Shown one piece after another: positions 13,791-21,152 of a stretch of 64,000 bases of DNA; positions within the stretch are counted from its first letter, which is position 1; each line of letters begins with the position of its first letter. The notes beneath the pieces are model-generated. The model was not told the DNA's origin. It saw nothing but the letters and a program-made list of their open reading frames with translations, and did not search any database. The position numbers and the translations under genes were made by a program. The stretch covers positions 186,001-250,000 of the forward strand of contig NZ_JABUXU010000002.1 in the NCBI RefSeq assembly GCF_014897675.1, read 5' to 3'. The stretch comes from Advenella sp. FME57. GTDB taxonomy: Bacteria > Pseudomonadota > Gammaproteobacteria > Burkholderiales > Burkholderiaceae_B.

Positions 13791-14933
13791 ATGCAGATCC
13801 GTTCGAAGCTACCCGCCGTGGGCACCACTGTTTTCAGCGTCATCGGTGATCTTGCCGAGCGTCATCAGGCTATCAATCTGGCGCAGGGAGCGCCTAACTT
13901 CCCGTGTGCGCCCGAACTGATCGATCATGCGATCGACGCCATGTCCGAAGGGCACAATCAATATTCTCCCATGATTGGCATTGAGCCATTGCGCAGCAAG
14001 ATTGCTGAAAAAATCCAGCTGCTGTATGGCCACAGTTATGATGAGCTCAACGAAGTCACGGTCATGGGCAGCGCCAGTGAAGCGCTTTATTGCGCCATTG
14101 CGGCGTTGATCCATCCGGGCGATGAGGTGATTTATTTCGAGCCGTGTTTTGACAGCTACGCGCCGATCGTCAAATTGCAAGGGGCCGTGCCGGTAGGCAT
14201 CAAGCTGCTGCCGCCCGGCTACGGTATAGACTGGGACGCAGTGCGCGACGCCGTCAATGACCGCACGCGCATGATTATCATCAATTCACCCCATAATCCC
14301 AGCGGCGCCGTGCTGTCTGACGCCGATATCGCCGCGCTGCAGGATATCGTGGCAGACACCAATATCATCATTCTGTCCGATGAAGTCTACGAACATGTGG
14401 TCTTCGATCAGGACATTCACCGCAGCATGTCCCGTTACGACGGGCTGCGCGAGCGTGCTGTGGTTGTGACTTCCTTTGGCAAGACGTTTCATGTGACAGG
14501 GTGGCGTATCGGCTATTGCGTCGCACCCGCGGCAATCACGGCTGAAATACGCAAGATTCATCAATTTCTCATGTATTGCGCTGATACGCCCATGCAGTAT
14601 GCGCTGGCGGCCATGATGGAGACGCCCAATCATTACCTGAACCTGTCCACCATCTATCAGGAAAAGCGCGATTTGCTGGCCCACGCACTCAAAGATTCGA
14701 AATTCGAACTTCTGCCGAGCAAGGGCAGTTTTTTCATGCTTGCTCGCTTCCATCACTTCAGTTATTTGTCCGACGTACAACTGGTACGCAAGCTGATCGA
14801 AGAATTCGGCGTGGCAACCATTCCCGTATCGGCGTTTTATTCCGATGGAACCGATCTGGGCGTCATCCGCCTGTCGTTTTCAAAGGATGACGCCACTCTG
14901 GAAGAGGGTGCAAAACGTCTTTGCAAATTATGA
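13791..14933 (+). CDS. PLP-dependent aminotransferase, YbdL (methionine aminotransferase)-like
   Basis: This 380-residue fold-type I aminotransferase shows the pattern of E. coli YbdL, a methionine/aromatic aminotransferase. Visible blocks are INLAQGAPNFP at about 27-37, the cofactor-contacting SASEALYCA, the INSPHNPSG stretch (PLP aspartate/asparagine loop), LSDEVYEHVVFD, and the lysine that binds PLP in SFGKTFHVTGWRIGY near residue 230. A C-terminal RLSFSK carries the carboxylate-binding Arg. Start ATG 13791 lies just behind the terminator at 13741-13766, so the gene needs its own promoter or read-through. It is 32 bases before the first Bug receptor, so the two could be co-transcribed. Substrate is an inference from family. 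Confidence 0.88.
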   Translation: MQIRSKLPAVGTTVFSVIGDLAERHQAINLAQGAPNFPCAPELIDHAIDAMSEGHNQYSPMIGIEPLRSKIAEKIQLLYGHSYDELNEVTVMGSASEALYCAIAALIHPGDEVIYFEPCFDSYAPIVKLQGAVPVGIKLLPPGYGIDWDAVRDAVNDRTRMIIINSPHNPSGAVLSDADIAALQDIVADTNIIILSDEVYEHVVFDQDIHRSMSRYDGLRERAVVVTSFGKTFHVTGWRIGYCVAPAAITAEIRKIHQFLMYCADTPMQYALAAMMETPNHYLNLSTIYQEKRDLLAHALKDSKFELLPSKGSFFMLARFHHFSYLSDVQLVRKLIEEFGVATIPVSAFYSDGTDLGVIRLSFSKDDATLEEGAKRLCKL

Positions 14934-14965
14934 TATTCATCAGTTATCTCGTTCAAGGAAACATT

Positions 14966-15955
14966 ATGAAAAATTTCAAGAAACTGACCATCAGTACGGT
15001 TCTGGCAGCCTGCGGCGTGCTGGGCGTGTCGGCCACTGCCGCAGCCCAGGACAACTGGCCCGCCAAGCCCATTACGTTTATCGTTCCCTACGCAGCAGGC
15101 GGCTTTGCCGATACCCGCATGCGCCTGCTGGCCGAAGAACTGAGCAAAGAGCTCAAGGCCAACGTTGTGGTGGAGAACAAGGCCGGGGCTGGCGGCGTGA
15201 TTGGCACAGACTATGTCGCTCGCGCCAAACCCGACGGTTATACAATCGGCAGTGGCAATCTGGCGCCGCTGTCGGTCAACCCTACGCTGATGCCAAAGAA
15301 CGTGAAATATGACGTGGCCAAAGACCTGGCGCCGGTGATTCTTATCGAAGAAAGCCCGCTGATCCTGAGTGTCAACAATAAACTGAACGTCAAAACCGTT
15401 GCCGATCTGATTGCGCTGGCAAAAAAAGAGCCCGGCAAACTAACCTTCGGTTCGTCCGGTGTCGGTGGTGCCCACCACCTGTCGGGTGAACTCTTTGCCT
15501 CCGACGCACAAGTGGAGCTGACTCACGTTCCATACAAGGGTGGCGCTCCTGCAGGCAGCGACCTGATGGCGGGTCACATCGATATGATGTTTGAAATGGG
15601 TTACGCAGCCATGCCGGCCATCCAGTCCAAAAAAGTGCATCCACTGGCCGTTACCAGCGCCAAGCGCCTGCCTTTGCTGCCCGATGTGCCTACCATGCAG
15701 GAAGCCGGCCTCAAGGGCTTTGAATCATACAACTGGCAGGGCGTGATTGCGCCTGCAGGCACCCCCGAACCGATTATCAGTAAACTGAATACGGCGTTCA
15801 ACAATATTCTGAAAAAGCCCGAGGTGCAAAAAGCCTTCGAAAGCACGGGCGGCCAGTCTGCCGGCGGTTCACCTGACGATTTCGCCAAGTTCATCCAGAG
15901 CGAAACGGCCAAATGGGCCCAGGTTATCAAAACCTCGAATGTCTCGGTAAATTAA
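14966..15955 (+). CDS. Bug/TctC-family tripartite tricarboxylate receptor (1)
   Basis: This 329-residue periplasmic solute receptor of the Bug (Bordetella uptake gene) family starts at ATG 14966 behind CAAGGAAACATT. The signal peptide MKNFKKLTISTVLAACGVLG... ends near ATAAA. Mature features are WPAKPITFIVPYAAGGFADTR, VVENKAGAGGVIG, KPDGYT and HVPYKGGAP, all Bug hallmarks. Receptors of this family bind small carboxylates, amides or amino acids, usually with an Asp-rich loop contacting the ligand's ammonium or a water-bridged carboxylate. No tctA/tctB sits next to it; such orphans are very numerous in Alcaligenaceae. Ligand unknown. Confidence 0.92.
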   Translation: MKNFKKLTISTVLAACGVLGVSATAAAQDNWPAKPITFIVPYAAGGFADTRMRLLAEELSKELKANVVVENKAGAGGVIGTDYVARAKPDGYTIGSGNLAPLSVNPTLMPKNVKYDVAKDLAPVILIEESPLILSVNNKLNVKTVADLIALAKKEPGKLTFGSSGVGGAHHLSGELFASDAQVELTHVPYKGGAPAGSDLMAGHIDMMFEMGYAAMPAIQSKKVHPLAVTSAKRLPLLPDVPTMQEAGLKGFESYNWQGVIAPAGTPEPIISKLNTAFNNILKKPEVQKAFESTGGQSAGGSPDDFAKFIQSETAKWAQVIKTSNVSVN

Positions 15956-16158
15956 ACGGCAACATCGTTATGTGCCTTATCGGGCGGGCGCCTGTCCGGC
16001 GCGGCTATGAGGGCTCCATTGTCGAGAAATCGGACAAGGATGCGTTCTTTACTCGTCCGCAAAGTGACCGGGCCCGCGATTTTCTGCAAAAAATACTGGT
16101 GTAAATGCGGCGATGTGCAGGTTCAGGTGATCTGCATATCGCACGCTCAAATTGTGTT

Positions 16159-17406
16159 TCAGTACGCCGGCTGCAATGTGGGATTTTGCGCCGATGCTTC
16201 GACCATTTCTCCCAGCATCTGGGCGGTGATGGCAGACAATGTCCATCCCAGGTGCCCGTGTCCGGTGTTATAGAAGACGCCGGGTTTGCGCCCACGGCAA
16301 ACGCGCGGCATCATATCGGGCATCATCGGGCGCAGGCCGCACCATGGCACCACGCGTCGGGTGGATATCTCGGGAAACAGGCGGCGGGTCCAGTCGATAA
16401 GGGGTTGTACCCGGTCTGCGCGGATGTCCTTGTTAAAGCCATTGAATTCGGCCGTACCCGCCACCCGAAAGCGATCACCCAGAAAGCTGGTAACGATTTT
16501 GGCGTCTTCATCCAGCAGGCTGACCCGAGGCGTTGCGGCCAGGCTGGCCGCGTCGTCCAGATGGACGCTGATGGAATAGCCTTTTACCGGATAGACATTC
16601 ATCGTGTCGCCCAGCATGCGGGCGATGGCCCGGCTGCCGGTGCCGGCGCAAACAACAATATTCTCAGCTTCAAGATAGGCCGACTGGACATCGTCGTAGC
16701 GCTGATGGAAAATTTGATGATGGTTCCGATCGCTGGTAATGCGAGTGACCGACGTATCCATGACAAAACGCACGCCCAGCTTGCGGCATGCTGCGGCCAG
16801 CCCGATGGTGAACTTGTGAATGTCGCCGGTGGCGTCCGATGGGGTATACAAGCCCGCGAAGAAGTCCCCGGTCAGTGTCGGTTCAATGGATCGCGCTTCA
16901 TCCGGCGTGACCGCATAGCGTTCCAGGCCGCCTTCCTGCAGTAGTGCATTGGTTTTTAAGGCCTTGTCAAAGCTGTCCTTGTCATAATAGAAGTGCAGTA
17001 TGCCCCGGCGCTCCAGATCAAAATCGATGTTCTCCTGTTCTGCCATGGCGTACAAATGACGGCGCGCTTCAATGGCCAGTCTGGTCGTTTCGATAGTATT
17101 GGTCTTGTGGTTGGGGATATTGCGTACGAATGCGGCGAGCCAGCTGTATTTATGCCAACTGAAGGCCGGATTGAGCAGCAGGGGCGCGTTGCGTTTGCCG
17201 ATCCAGCGCAGTCCTTTCATGATGGTGGCGGTGCTGTTCCACACTTCGGCGTTGCTTGCCGAAAGCTGGCCGCCGTTGGCAAACGACGTTTCCATGGCGG
17301 CGTCCCGGTTTTTGTCCAGGACAGTGACCGAATAGCCGAGTTTGGCCAGGGTATAAGCGGTGGTGATGCCGGTAATGCCGGCGCCGATGATGGCGACACG
17401 TGACAT
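16159..17406 (-). CDS. dadA: FAD-dependent D-amino acid dehydrogenase (DadA-like) under glycine riboswitch
   Basis: This 415-residue flavoprotein of the DAO family starts MSRVAIIGAGITGITTAY (FAD-binding GxGxxG), followed by ETSFANGGQLSASNAEVW. The C-terminal block is WCGLRPMMPDMMP...NTGHGHLGWT, the DadA pattern. DadA enzymes oxidise D-amino acids to 2-oxo acids and ammonia and feed electrons to quinones at the inner membrane. What is unusual is the 5' leader: a full tandem glycine riboswitch ends about 50 bases upstream of the start. That suggests the substrate or inducer is glycine, or an acid derived from it such as sarcosine, rather than D-alanine. No alanine racemase (dadX) is adjacent. 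It may therefore be a glycine-oxidising or glycine-detoxifying relative. Assignment to DadA is firm at family level only. Confidence 0.88.
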   Translation of the reverse strand: MSRVAIIGAGITGITTAYTLAKLGYSVTVLDKNRDAAMETSFANGGQLSASNAEVWNSTATIMKGLRWIGKRNAPLLLNPAFSWHKYSWLAAFVRNIPNHKTNTIETTRLAIEARRHLYAMAEQENIDFDLERRGILHFYYDKDSFDKALKTNALLQEGGLERYAVTPDEARSIEPTLTGDFFAGLYTPSDATGDIHKFTIGLAAACRKLGVRFVMDTSVTRITSDRNHHQIFHQRYDDVQSAYLEAENIVVCAGTGSRAIARMLGDTMNVYPVKGYSISVHLDDAASLAATPRVSLLDEDAKIVTSFLGDRFRVAGTAEFNGFNKDIRADRVQPLIDWTRRLFPEISTRRVVPWCGLRPMMPDMMPRVCRGRKPGVFYNTGHGHLGWTLSAITAQMLGEMVEASAQNPTLQPAY

Positions 17407-17454
17407 AAACGTCTCCGATAGCGGTGATGCAAATCACACGATCTGCATACCCCA

Positions 17455-17622
17455 TCTGTCACGGTACCTGAGAGTTTCACCGGCTTGTTGCATGAAGCCG
17501 GTTCCCCTTCGGTGGGCGCATGCGCCTCTCTCCAGAGTGTCGCGTTATTTGCAGTCCTTTTGCCTGAGAGTTTCCGGGGTGGTTGCTCCGTCGGCGTCAG
17601 CAGGGCTGAACTCTCCTGCAAA
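17455..17622 (-). promoter_or_regulatory. Tandem glycine riboswitch (two aptamers) upstream of dadA-like gene
   Basis: Read on the minus strand, aptamer 1 starts near 17622 with TTGCAGGAGAGTTC and closes with AACTCTCAGGCAAAAGGAC (17576-17556). Aptamer 2 follows after a short linker with CTCTGGAGAGAGGCGC (from 17537) and CACCGAAGGGG, then AAACTCTCAGGTACCGTGAC (to 17460). The paired GGAGAG / CTCTCAGG segments, the CCGAAGGGG element and the short inter-aptamer linker are the conserved core of the gcvT-type glycine riboswitch. Glycine binding usually turns expression on for glycine catabolism. No terminator T tract is obvious between aptamer 2 and the start codon at 17406, so the expression platform may act on translation. 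Confidence 0.93.
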
Positions 17623-17671
17623 CACGTATGTCGACAACGCATATGATAGTCGCCTGCTGTAAGACAACAAG

Positions 17672-17687
17672 CTAGGGTTTACCCTAG
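17672..17687. promoter_or_regulatory. Perfect 7-2-7 inverted repeat upstream of the riboswitch
   Basis: CTAGGGT (17672-17678) and ACCCTAG (17681-17687) flank a TT centre. It lies about 50 bases 5' of the riboswitch on the minus strand, in promoter position. Related AGGGT/ACCCT dyads occur upstream of gltI (39885-39907) and, imperfectly, upstream of the small membrane protein gene (52449-52463). Confidence 0.45.
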
Positions 17688-17838: not shown

Positions 17839-18798
17839 CTATTGCACTGTAATTTTATTTTCCTTGATGATTTTTTCGTACAGTGCAGAATCCCGTTTAA
17901 TGAGTTCGCTCAGTTCAGCCGCAGAGCCGCCGATGGGCACAAAACCAGCCGTCCTGAACTTGTTCTTCACATCCGGTTCTTTGACGATTTCGGCAAGTTC
18001 CGATGAGACGCGGTCCACGATTTCCTGCGGCGTTCCTTTCGGGGCCATGAGCGAAGTCCACGAGTTCATCACAAAGCCCTTGAAGCCGGCTTCTTCCATG
18101 GTGGGGATGTCATCTTCACCTTCCCAGCGTTTGGCCGACGTAATTGCCAGCGCATTGAGCTTGTCTTCCTTGACGTAACTCATAGGCACCAGGATTGGAT
18201 CAAAGACCATGGAAACCCGGCCACTGAGCAAATCTGCAAGAATGGGCGCGCTGCCCTTATAGGGAACGTGTGTCATTTCAAGCCCGGCTTCATCGGCAAA
18301 GTGGGCGCCGGTCAGGTGGGCGCTCGAACCTGTGCCGCTGGATGCGTAGGTCAGATGGTTCTTCTTGCCGTATTCCACCAGTTCTTTCATGTTCTTGGCA
18401 GGCACCTGCTTGCTGACAAAAAGAAATAGAGGTAGGTCGGCAATATGCGATACCGGAACGAAATCCTCGTTGCTATAGTTCAGCTTGTATAAATGCGGAT
18501 TGGCGGAATAGGCGGCCAGGACAGTGACAAACGTATACCCGTCCGGCTTGGAGCGCGCGGCCTGGCTGGTTCCGATCGTACTGTTTGCGCCGGGTTTGTT
18601 TTCAATCACGATTGGTTGCTTGAGCCTTTCCGACAGCTTCTGCATGACAACGCGGGTTACGGTGTCAGTCGCGCCGCCCGGCGTGTAGGGAACGATAACC
18701 TTGATGGGTTTGTCGGGCCACGCCGCCTGAGCCGCCATGGGCAGAATCAGGGCAGCAAGAGCGGTGTACGCGAGAACAGATGTCCCTTTTATTTTCAT
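17839..18798 (-). CDS. Bug/TctC-family tripartite tricarboxylate receptor (2)
   Basis: This 319-residue periplasmic receptor has a signal peptide MKIKGTSVLAYTALAALILP... ending near AAQAA. Mature blocks include WPDKPIKVIVPYTPGGATDT, VIENKPGANSTIG, SKPDGYTF and THVPYKGSAP. The start at ATG 18796-18798 is preferred because AAGGA lies 9 bases before it; the TTG three codons upstream has poor spacing. The gene is monocistronic, with its own terminator at 17772-17806 and another hairpin upstream at 18914-18948. It shares only family-level similarity with the other two Bug receptors in the window. Ligand unknown. Confidence 0.92.
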   Translation of the reverse strand: MKIKGTSVLAYTALAALILPMAAQAAWPDKPIKVIVPYTPGGATDTVTRVVMQKLSERLKQPIVIENKPGANSTIGTSQAARSKPDGYTFVTVLAAYSANPHLYKLNYSNEDFVPVSHIADLPLFLFVSKQVPAKNMKELVEYGKKNHLTYASSGTGSSAHLTGAHFADEAGLEMTHVPYKGSAPILADLLSGRVSMVFDPILVPMSYVKEDKLNALAITSAKRWEGEDDIPTMEEAGFKGFVMNSWTSLMAPKGTPQEIVDRVSSELAEIVKEPDVKNKFRTAGFVPIGGSAAELSELIKRDSALYEKIIKENKITVQ

Positions 18799-18913
18799 TT
18801 GAATCAATCCTTATGAGATTTGGATAACCAATAAAGGATAACAAACATTGGTCAAGAATAAGCGTTCTCCTGATGAAATAAAAAAGGAAATCCGATCGCC
18901 TCCCAAAAAATGA

Positions 18914-20168: not shown

Positions 20169-21152
20169 TTACTTTTTCTCGAACCCCAAGGACTCGAGCA
20201 CCTTGCCTTCGTCTGTTGTGGTTTTTTTCGCAAACTCGGTGTATTGCTGGGTGCTCATGTAGAGCGGTTCCATATCGTATTTTTCCAGCGCTTCGCGAAA
20301 GTTGGGTTTTTCCATGGCCAGCTTGAGCGCGTCATGAAGCTTTTTCACGATGTCCGGATCGGTGTCCTTGGGAACGGCCAGTCCGAAAGGAGAAAGCTGA
20401 ACACGGTTAATGCCCGATTCCTTGAGGGTGGGCGCGTCAGGAAATTTTTTGCTGCGTTTTTCACCCCAGGTAGACAACAGGCGCAGCTTGCCGTTCTCTA
20501 CATAAGGCGCCCATGCCGGGGTATCTGCCACTGACATGACAAACCCGCCAATAATGGCCTTGAGCGACTCCGCGTTGCCTTTATAGGGGACATGCACCAG
20601 TTTGATGTCGGCGTCCTGGGCAATGGCCTCCATGGTGATATGCAGGGTCGTCATAATGCCCGGCGAACCATAGGTGAGTTTTTCCGGATTTTCTCTGGCG
20701 TACTCGATATATTCTTTCATCGACTTGATCGGTGAATCGGCCGGCACCACCAGTCCGAAAGAATAACCTGCAAGGCCGATGACATAGGTCAGATCGGTGG
20801 CCGGGTTCCAGTCAATCTTGCTGATGTAGGGCAGGCGGAACACCGGTGTTGGCGTTTGGGCAAGGGTGTAGCCGTCCGGCTTCTTATTGTGCAGCTGCAT
20901 GGCCGGCAGAACACCGCCGGCACCCGGCTTGTTTTCGACGATCACCGGTTGCTTGAGAATACCCGTCAGGTTTTCTGCCAGCACCCGGAATGGAATGTCG
21001 GTTGAGCCGCCGGCCGTATAGCCAATCACGATTGTGATTGGCTTGTTAGGAAAGTTCTTGGCTGCCTCGGACATTGCCTGGGCTGACTGCATACCGCCTG
21101 CCATGAGCATAGCAATGGCGGCGGTATAAATGGACTTGCCTGGTTTTATCAC
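20169..21152 (-). CDS. Bug/TctC-family tripartite tricarboxylate receptor (3)
   Basis: This 327-residue periplasmic receptor has signal peptide MIKPGKSIYTAAIAMLMAGG... ending near AQA. Mature blocks are FPNKPITIVIGYTAGGSTDI, IVENKPGAGGVLP, KKPDGYT and VHVPYKGNAE. The start is GTG at 21150-21152 with CAGGAGACAA just before it, a strong site. The gene is last in a minus-strand run: nitronate monooxygenase-like, enoyl-CoA hydratase, acyl-CoA dehydrogenase, then this receptor 84 bases later. The run suggests the receptor captures the carboxylate degraded by those enzymes, with permease subunits supplied from elsewhere. Ligand unknown. Confidence 0.92.
   Translation of the reverse strand: MIKPGKSIYTAAIAMLMAGGMQSAQAMSEAAKNFPNKPITIVIGYTAGGSTDIPFRVLAENLTGILKQPVIVENKPGAGGVLPAMQLHNKKPDGYTLAQTPTPVFRLPYISKIDWNPATDLTYVIGLAGYSFGLVVPADSPIKSMKEYIEYARENPEKLTYGSPGIMTTLHITMEAIAQDADIKLVHVPYKGNAESLKAIIGGFVMSVADTPAWAPYVENGKLRLLSTWGEKRSKKFPDAPTLKESGINRVQLSPFGLAVPKDTDPDIVKKLHDALKLAMEKPNFREALEKYDMEPLYMSTQQYTEFAKKTTTDEGKVLESLGFEKK

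Follow-up and report, generated by a model that had tools for sequence, protein, structure and literature searches.

Near-universal pairing of a tandem glycine riboswitch with PRK12409-family flavoprotein genes suggests a glycine dehydrogenase behind a D-amino acid dehydrogenase label

In Neisseria gonorrhoeae, a tandem glycine riboswitch located before gcvT works as a translational ON switch, and OFF versions of tandem glycine riboswitches exist as well (PMC13104608). Riboswitches on glycine cleavage genes typically have a better conserved first aptamer (PMC6944388), and the expression platforms of riboswitches in Pseudomonadota favour translation (PMC12452182). In marine metagenomes, malate synthase is a glycine-riboswitch target (Kazanov 2007, PMC2211319), and Additional file 5 of PMC3766115 lists twelve glycine-metabolism genes of glycine regulons. 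Here, we analyse a stretch of 64,000 nucleotides from Advenella sp. FME57 (contig NZ_JABUXU010000002.1, positions 186,001 to 250,000; hereafter, the window), in which a tandem glycine riboswitch precedes the gene of a flavoprotein that belongs to the PRK12409 family and bears the family name D-amino acid dehydrogenase. We consider it probable that this gene encodes a glycine-induced, FAD-dependent glycine dehydrogenase that generates glyoxylate, providing a feed-forward route beside the glycine cleavage system. The view that the DadA label of the riboswitch-linked enzyme is misleading is well supported by sequence comparisons.

A covariance search of the minus strand with the Rfam glycine riboswitch model RF00504 found both aptamers (Table 1). 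The scan of the whole window listed aptamer 1 with an E-value of 1.7e-11 and did not list aptamer 2, which was recovered by a local scan at a permissive threshold (17540-17450) and by a search of the whole genome (C36:203446-203545). Both aptamers exceed the gathering score of the model in the local as well as in the genome-wide search, with aptamer 1 having the same score in both. An earlier sequence-only reading of this DNA had placed the tandem riboswitch at 17455-17622, which is correct to within about 10 nt, and had rightly pointed out that it stands before a DadA-like flavoprotein and not before gcvT. The next open reading frame (ORF) on the same strand, whose start at 17406 is about 40 nt away from the riboswitch (17628-17446), encodes a PRK12409/DAO protein. 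A different tandem glycine riboswitch, the only other one in the genome of 4.74 Mb, precedes gcvT on contig C19. Judged by its covariance scores, the element is an ordinary member of RF00504, for which binding of glycine is predicted. Chance co-location is ruled out by the E-value in the window together with the recurrence of the pairing across the phylum, and a vestigial riboswitch is ruled out by the strong conservation of aptamer 1.

Comparison of related genomes showed that the pairing of riboswitch and gene is kept almost everywhere. From 251 close relatives of the locus, the best 80 were kept, with 59-94% identity in their best segments; a riboswitch covariance match is present just upstream of the gene in 79 of these, namely in 20 of 20 by Rfam and in 59 of 60 by R1, a covariance model built from 17 leaders, none of which is among the 60 relatives to which it was applied. 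PRK12409 proteins over the cut-off occur in 48 of the 151 genomes of the window's family, and all 48 genes are preceded by at least two CUCUCAGG-type cores; the first of these lies between about -156 and -202, and the one after it between -67 and -89. In a sample of 398 genomes of the phylum the protein was found in 25, with the riboswitch in 24 of them (17 by Rfam, 6 by R1, plus the window). A further family, labelled rhizobial because locus L254 is identical to the Phyllobacterium locus L085, contains PRK12409 in 40 of 199 genomes, as 42 genes; a strong R1 match was present in 28 of the 30 loci that were read, two of which are already in the phylum sample. On plasmids, 62 records had a strong match and the riboswitch was located upstream in all ten that were fetched; a search of viral contigs gave one partial relative (L278). 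The samples overlap, as several genomes of the family sample share their contigs with close-relative loci, and the counts are not independent. In the samples examined, near-universal pairing with the riboswitch is a property of the PRK12409 protein family. Furthermore, three of the seven Advenella genomes in the family sample (G040, G095 and G150) lack PRK12409 and have two aptamer hits instead of four, which suggests that gene and riboswitch are gained or lost together.

The window flavoprotein carries the DAO domain PF01266 (253.6 bits) and exceeds the cut-off of the NCBIfam "D-amino acid dehydrogenase" model NF009074/PRK12409 (692.9 bits versus 494), whereas it misses those of canonical DadA, NF001933/PRK00711 (329.2 bits versus 383), and of the glycine oxidase ThiO, TIGR02352 (142.9 bits versus 250.8). 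Its best sequence matches among solved structures, 7cyx and 4ysh, are both named glycine oxidase, and its locus has relatives at 92% and 94% protein identity in Advenella sp. S44 and A. incenata. On a quick tree of 137 non-redundant proteins, which has several long branches, the PRK12409 rows stand on their own side of a branch with an SH-aLRT value of 96, and 96 of the 98 rows of this clade have the riboswitch; E. coli DadA falls on the other side, on a long branch whose exact place is unsure.

Canonical DadA genes provided the most direct control. In 31 of the 48 genomes with PRK12409, we took one gene each with a PRK00711 match of over 660 bits; neither RF00504 nor the core-motif pair is present in the 500 nt upstream in any of the 31 cases. 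As read from best E-values, a PRK00711 DadA over the cut-off coexists with the PRK12409 protein in 45 of the 48 genomes, the exceptions being G069, G093 and G119. Neither the core motif nor an R1 match was found upstream of E. coli dadA or of L006-L009, four of ten further DAO matches in the window's own genome.

The two groups of enzymes also differ in sequence. A comparison of 44 PRK12409 proteins, two of them without the riboswitch, with 25 riboswitch-free DadA-like proteins revealed 40 clearly different positions. Position 52 is N in all 44 and Y in all 25, and position 362 is M in 42 of the 44 versus T in all 25; position 365 is M and position 385 is H in every PRK12409 protein, versus N in 22 and T in 20 of the 25 others. 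A low-scoring alignment with 4ysh, which is a ThiO, matches position 52 to residue 54 of that protein and the invariant arginine in GLRP of the window protein to the catalytic arginine. In the case of the B. subtilis glycine oxidase, the variant G51S/A54R/H244A, designed at the active-site entrance, has a shifted substrate preference (PMC3818420). Positions 52, 362, 365 and 385 of the PRK12409 proteins may line the substrate pocket.

The riboswitch also occurs in a second group of DadA-like genes. Forty such genes scoring below the PRK12409 cut-off (the best 20 and 20 hand-picked) were inspected; RF00504 was found in 11 and not in 29. On the 137-protein tree, seven of the 11 (the other four were dropped as near-copies) form, together with L235 and L236, a second riboswitch clade in which eight of the nine rows have the riboswitch, and tree rows outside this and the PRK12409 clade have none. 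The riboswitch-bearing members are L172-L177, L169, L185, L186, L189, L197 and L235. The nine second-clade proteins that were compared all have H at position 52. PRK12409 is missing from all 11 genomes of the family sample that have the second clade, which would fit a replacement of one by the other, and the second clade may do the same job as PRK12409.

The gene neighbourhood provides an indication of the product of the reaction. A gene for malate synthase G lies directly 3' on the same strand, with gaps of 13-35 nt, at loci L249, L279, L250, L253 and L255, which belong to Sinorhizobium fredii pSfreNXT3b, Aminobacter pMET1 and the genomes G595, G607 and G682, with the contig of G595 ending inside the malate synthase G gene. 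The pMET1 protein was confirmed by TIGR01345 and PF01274, and a further malate synthase G copy is located elsewhere in both G607 and G682. At three further loci, L281, L285 and L224 (two S. meliloti plasmids and genome G221), malate synthase G follows the gene in pieces; on the S. meliloti plasmids (L281 and L285), the riboswitch and the dehydrogenase remain though the downstream gene is fragmented. The arrangement, including the three in pieces, is thus present in 8 of the 190 loci blasted, some of which are from the same species and at least 17 of which hold no downstream sequence. Judged by its distribution, the link may represent one old gain followed by losses. In the window's own genome malate synthase G is present and not adjacent to the flavoprotein gene, and neither R1 nor RF00504 matches its locus. 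Malate synthase uses glyoxylate, the product expected from glycine, and so its downstream position fits glycine as the substrate; D-alanine would give pyruvate. Sarcosine is less favoured because its oxidation gives glycine, which would not feed malate synthase directly. Work on SAR11 is said to have proposed a glycine-oxidising step upstream of malate synthase. A conserved operon partner was sought in the 80 close relatives, whose neighbours, taken without one-by-one annotation, form small and mixed clusters, leaving the riboswitch as the only conserved context seen in them. Other neighbours are HbpS/GlcG-like genes downstream in L279, L280, L282, L249 and L063 (PF03928 in the one tested) and RidA-family genes beside L248 and L283.

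Concerning the control of expression, a scan of the window leader detected nothing resembling a terminator from aptamer 2 to the start codon, in agreement with the sequence-only reading, which had seen no terminator in the start region, and a T-run of at least five is present at this place in 1 of 80 related leaders. In the minimum-energy fold of the leader, the pairing between CGUGACA and UGUCACG (Table 1) covers the UG of the start codon and competes with P1 of aptamer 2. Conservation in 79 leaders is stronger in aptamer 1, with 34 columns at 98% or more, than in aptamer 2, with 18. By analogy with the Neisseria riboswitch (PMC13104608), and given that a better conserved aptamer 1 is the pattern of glycine cleavage genes (PMC6944388), ON control at the level of translation is likely. 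The earlier suggestion that control may be translational is plausible: the lack of a terminator and the start-occluding pairings speak for it, and the folding signal, given below, is weak and the changes in openness are mixed. The accompanying remark that this would set the element apart from most glycine riboswitches does not stand, since Pseudomonadota platforms favour translation (PMC12452182) and the gcvT riboswitch of N. gonorrhoeae is translational too (PMC13104608).

Taken together, we propose that the tandem riboswitch in the 5' leader would sense intracellular glycine and turn ON the single flavoenzyme gene, and that the PRK12409 enzyme would oxidise glycine to iminoglycine, which would be hydrolysed to glyoxylate and ammonia. 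By analogy with DadA, the respiratory chain and not O2 would receive the electrons, and the glyoxylate would enter central metabolism, for example via malate synthase G. Such a glycine-catabolic route would be feed-forward and parallel to the glycine cleavage system; in this genome, gcvT is preceded by a glycine riboswitch of its own. Glycine as the substrate, glyoxylate as the product, the ON polarity and the translational control are what we infer. That the enzyme has a role linked to glycine and that the DadA label misleads, as the sequence-only reading had supposed, gains support by comparison from the near-universal pairing, from the 31 canonical DadA genes lacking the riboswitch and from the rhizobial malate synthase G; the identity of the substrate is the part that stays conjectural. 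Less firmly, we lean towards the wider view that all PRK12409 flavoproteins of about 400 residues are glycine-inducible respiratory glycine dehydrogenases, forming with malate synthase a glycine-to-glyoxylate-to-malate route beside the glycine cleavage system in many alpha-, beta- and possibly gammaproteobacteria, and that the second clade may do the same job.

Several observations weigh against the proposed glycine dehydrogenase. First, the window protein resembles DadA (329 bits) more closely in sequence than it does ThiO (143 bits), and no PRK12409-family enzyme with a measured substrate was found. Second, the riboswitch is not unique to PRK12409, because the second DadA-like clade, which is over the PRK00711 cut-off where seen, is also linked to it. 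Third, the riboswitch is missing from the close relative L055 (one core motif, no covariance match), from L232 of the phylum sample and from the rhizobial locus L267, and the match at the rhizobial locus L270 is marginal and about 455 nt upstream (19.6 bits by R1, 32.8 bits by Rfam). Fourth, the malate synthase G link is limited to one rhizobial clade: on a 43-protein tree all eight cases fall in one starred set of 13, requiring at the fewest four changes, and among the 190 loci blasted the arrangement was not seen in the betaproteobacterial ones, the window included. Fifth, CycA-like permeases, carriers of D-serine, D-alanine and glycine, are riboswitch-linked in three family loci, which leaves room for a role in D-alanine metabolism. 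Finally, in 79 leaders the pairing between the CGUGACA strand and the start region exceeds that of shuffled sequences only slightly in strength (mean z of -0.68, with 24 leaders below -1), and forcing P1 in constrained folding raised the openness of the start region in 34, lowered it in 5 and left it within 0.02 in 40; in the window, it opens the AUG from 0.39 to 0.53 and closes the Shine-Dalgarno sequence from 0.86 to 0.55. In view of this mean z and these mixed shifts, the start-region anti-P1 helix is weak as a general expression platform.

The permeases bear on the most serious alternative, namely that the protein is a true D-amino acid dehydrogenase, acting on D-alanine, D-serine or a broad range of substrates, and that glycine, a competitor of D-alanine in the cell wall that uses the same importer, CycA, is the signal to clear D-amino acids when glycine is high. 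We regard this as unlikely. When the loci of the strongest aptamers in the family sample were fetched, a choice biased towards strong aptamers, the genes behind the 29 riboswitches were 22 of PRK12409, one second-clade DadA, two gcvT, three for CycA-like permeases (L112, L113 and L117) and one for a PF03458 Gly_transporter protein (L115). The best model for the one permease tested, a partial protein, was a D-serine/D-alanine/glycine transporter, at 553 bits and under the cut-off of 732. The three permease loci of the 29 would suit a D-amino acid dehydrogenase, as would the name of the PRK12409 family, the 329 bits to PRK00711 and the passing of the DadA cut-off by the second clade. However, 45 of the 48 PRK12409 genomes already own a DadA over the cut-off, the canonical gene is without the riboswitch in 31 of 31 cases, a downstream malate synthase G suits glyoxylate and not pyruvate, and the residues of the two clades differ. 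As a separate observation, Bradyrhizobium locus L071 has a second R1 match (534-635), which lies in front of what appears by eye to be a gene for an extracellular solute-binding protein and is separated from the PRK12409 gene downstream by about 2.4 kb.

A second alternative, which we consider improbable, is that the enzyme acts on an N-substituted glycine, for instance sarcosine, iminodiacetate or a natural glyphosate-like compound, and oxidises it to glyoxylate or glycine; the riboswitch would then sense glycine as a metabolite of the pathway. The DAO family does include sarcosine and glyphosate oxidoreductases, and Gox, whose homologues include D-amino acid dehydrogenases, splits glyphosate into glyoxylate and AMPA (PMC12452685). 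Against this, glycine derived from sarcosine is unusable by malate synthase, the gene tables of ten plasmids name no sarcosine or betaine genes, and the neighbours of the 80 loci form the small, mixed clusters described above. DAO-family flavoenzymes are generally known to work in the oxidative direction, and the malate synthase neighbour is catabolic; both argue against an OFF switch through which glycine would repress an enzyme that makes or recycles glycine or a precursor. Although OFF tandem glycine riboswitches exist (PMC13104608) and folding leaves the polarity unsettled, conservation biased towards aptamer 1 is the glycine-cleavage, ON pattern (PMC13104608, PMC6944388), which makes such a switch very improbable.

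Within the openly licensed literature we found no prior report of a glycine riboswitch paired with a D-amino acid dehydrogenase or dadA gene, and Additional file 5 of PMC3766115 could still name the gene. The pairing is not stated in the extracts of PMC5760752, PMC10590968, PMC9045290 and PMC2573895, nor in those of PMC3188799 and PMC5596092, in which the gene behind a glycine riboswitch is unnamed, so that these may hold an unremarked case. A match to dadA in PMC12593503 is due to the species name dadantii. With the supplementary list of PMC3766115 set aside, the enzyme assignment and the near-obligate linkage appear to be new within the openly licensed literature searched. If the assignment is true, an NCBIfam equivalog that about 110 of the searched genomes contain bears the wrong name, and D-amino acid metabolism has been called too often in many proteobacteria. 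The glycine riboswitch regulon would also gain another kind of target, with near-obligate linkage, and the enzyme would be a candidate for the glycine-to-glyoxylate step implied by a glycine-controlled malate synthase. Such enzymes may bear on the breakdown of glyphosate, itself an N-substituted glycine.

Other features of the locus are of minor importance for the argument. The PRK12409 genes without a clear riboswitch (L232, L055, L267 and L270) are natural losses that could show the fate of the enzyme without control. The possible promoter was read by eye (Table 1); a promoter scan called none at this position, and a box resembling TATCAT/TATCGT is present at a similar place in the leaders L013, L014, L030, L015 and L016. 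Just 5' of it, at 17672-17687, lies the perfect palindrome CTAGGGTAAACCCTAG, a possible operator; the genome contains one other TAGGGTNNACCCTA palindrome, at C11:8822. As a shared operator CTAGGGTAAACCCTAG is ruled out, since it is broken in L013, L014 and L030. Three genes for TctC-type solute receptors are located within 6.3 kb (14921-15955 and 17839-18807, both PF03401, and 20169-21152, by eye). Isolated between the first of these and the dehydrogenase gene, positions 15958-16101 of the plus strand contain about 45 codons that resemble, by eye, the C-terminus of an amino-acid ABC transporter ATPase and are likely a gene remnant.

Table 1. Positions in the window of the riboswitch, the gene it precedes and the associated leader elements.
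Feature	Position	Strand	Description
PRK12409-family FAD-dependent "D-amino acid dehydrogenase"; proposed glycine dehydrogenase	16159-17406	minus	ORF, ATG start, 415 aa
Translation start region	17399-17416	minus	GGAGA Shine-Dalgarno-like sequence (17416-17412), AUG (17406-17404), complement to CGUGACA
CGUGACA	17457-17463	minus	overlaps 3' strand of aptamer-2 P1; alternative pairing with UGUCACG (17405-17399) in the minimum-energy fold
Glycine riboswitch aptamer 2 (RF00504)	17446-17545	minus	37.7 bits in local scan (17540-17450), 52.9 bits in whole-genome search
Glycine riboswitch aptamer 1 (RF00504)	17542-17628	minus	66.1 bits, gathering score 32, full model 1-94
Possible promoter	17643-17670	minus	TTGTTG (17670-17665), 16-nt spacer, TATCAT (17648-17643), just 5' of aptamer 1; by eye

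Compared with known enzymes, the window protein shares with canonical DadA (PRK00711; E. coli dadA) the DAO family, a similar length and the GLRP and GHG-LGW motifs. It differs in scoring below the 383-bit cut-off, in falling in a separate clade and in having N52, M362, M365 and H385 where DadA-like proteins have mostly Y, T, N and T. E. coli dadA, moreover, is followed by the racemase gene dadX and has no riboswitch, unlike the window gene. ThiO serves thiamine synthesis and uses O2. It has in common with the window protein the DAO family and the conserved GLRP arginine (R302 in B. subtilis; PMC3818420), and the window protein, at 142.9 bits, is below its cut-off of 250.8. Compared with known riboswitches, the element resembles those of gcvT, such as that of N. 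gonorrhoeae (PMC13104608), in being a tandem RF00504 riboswitch with no terminator seen and with possible sequestration of the start by a sequence that overlaps aptamer 2, but its target is a DAO-family flavoenzyme and not the glycine cleavage system, and both kinds are found in the genome of Advenella sp. FME57. The glcB riboswitch of marine metagenomes (Kazanov 2007, PMC2211319) is similar in that glycine would control the use of glyoxylate; there, malate synthase is itself the target of the riboswitch, whereas here the proposed glyoxylate-making enzyme comes first and malate synthase, in a few rhizobia only, comes second.

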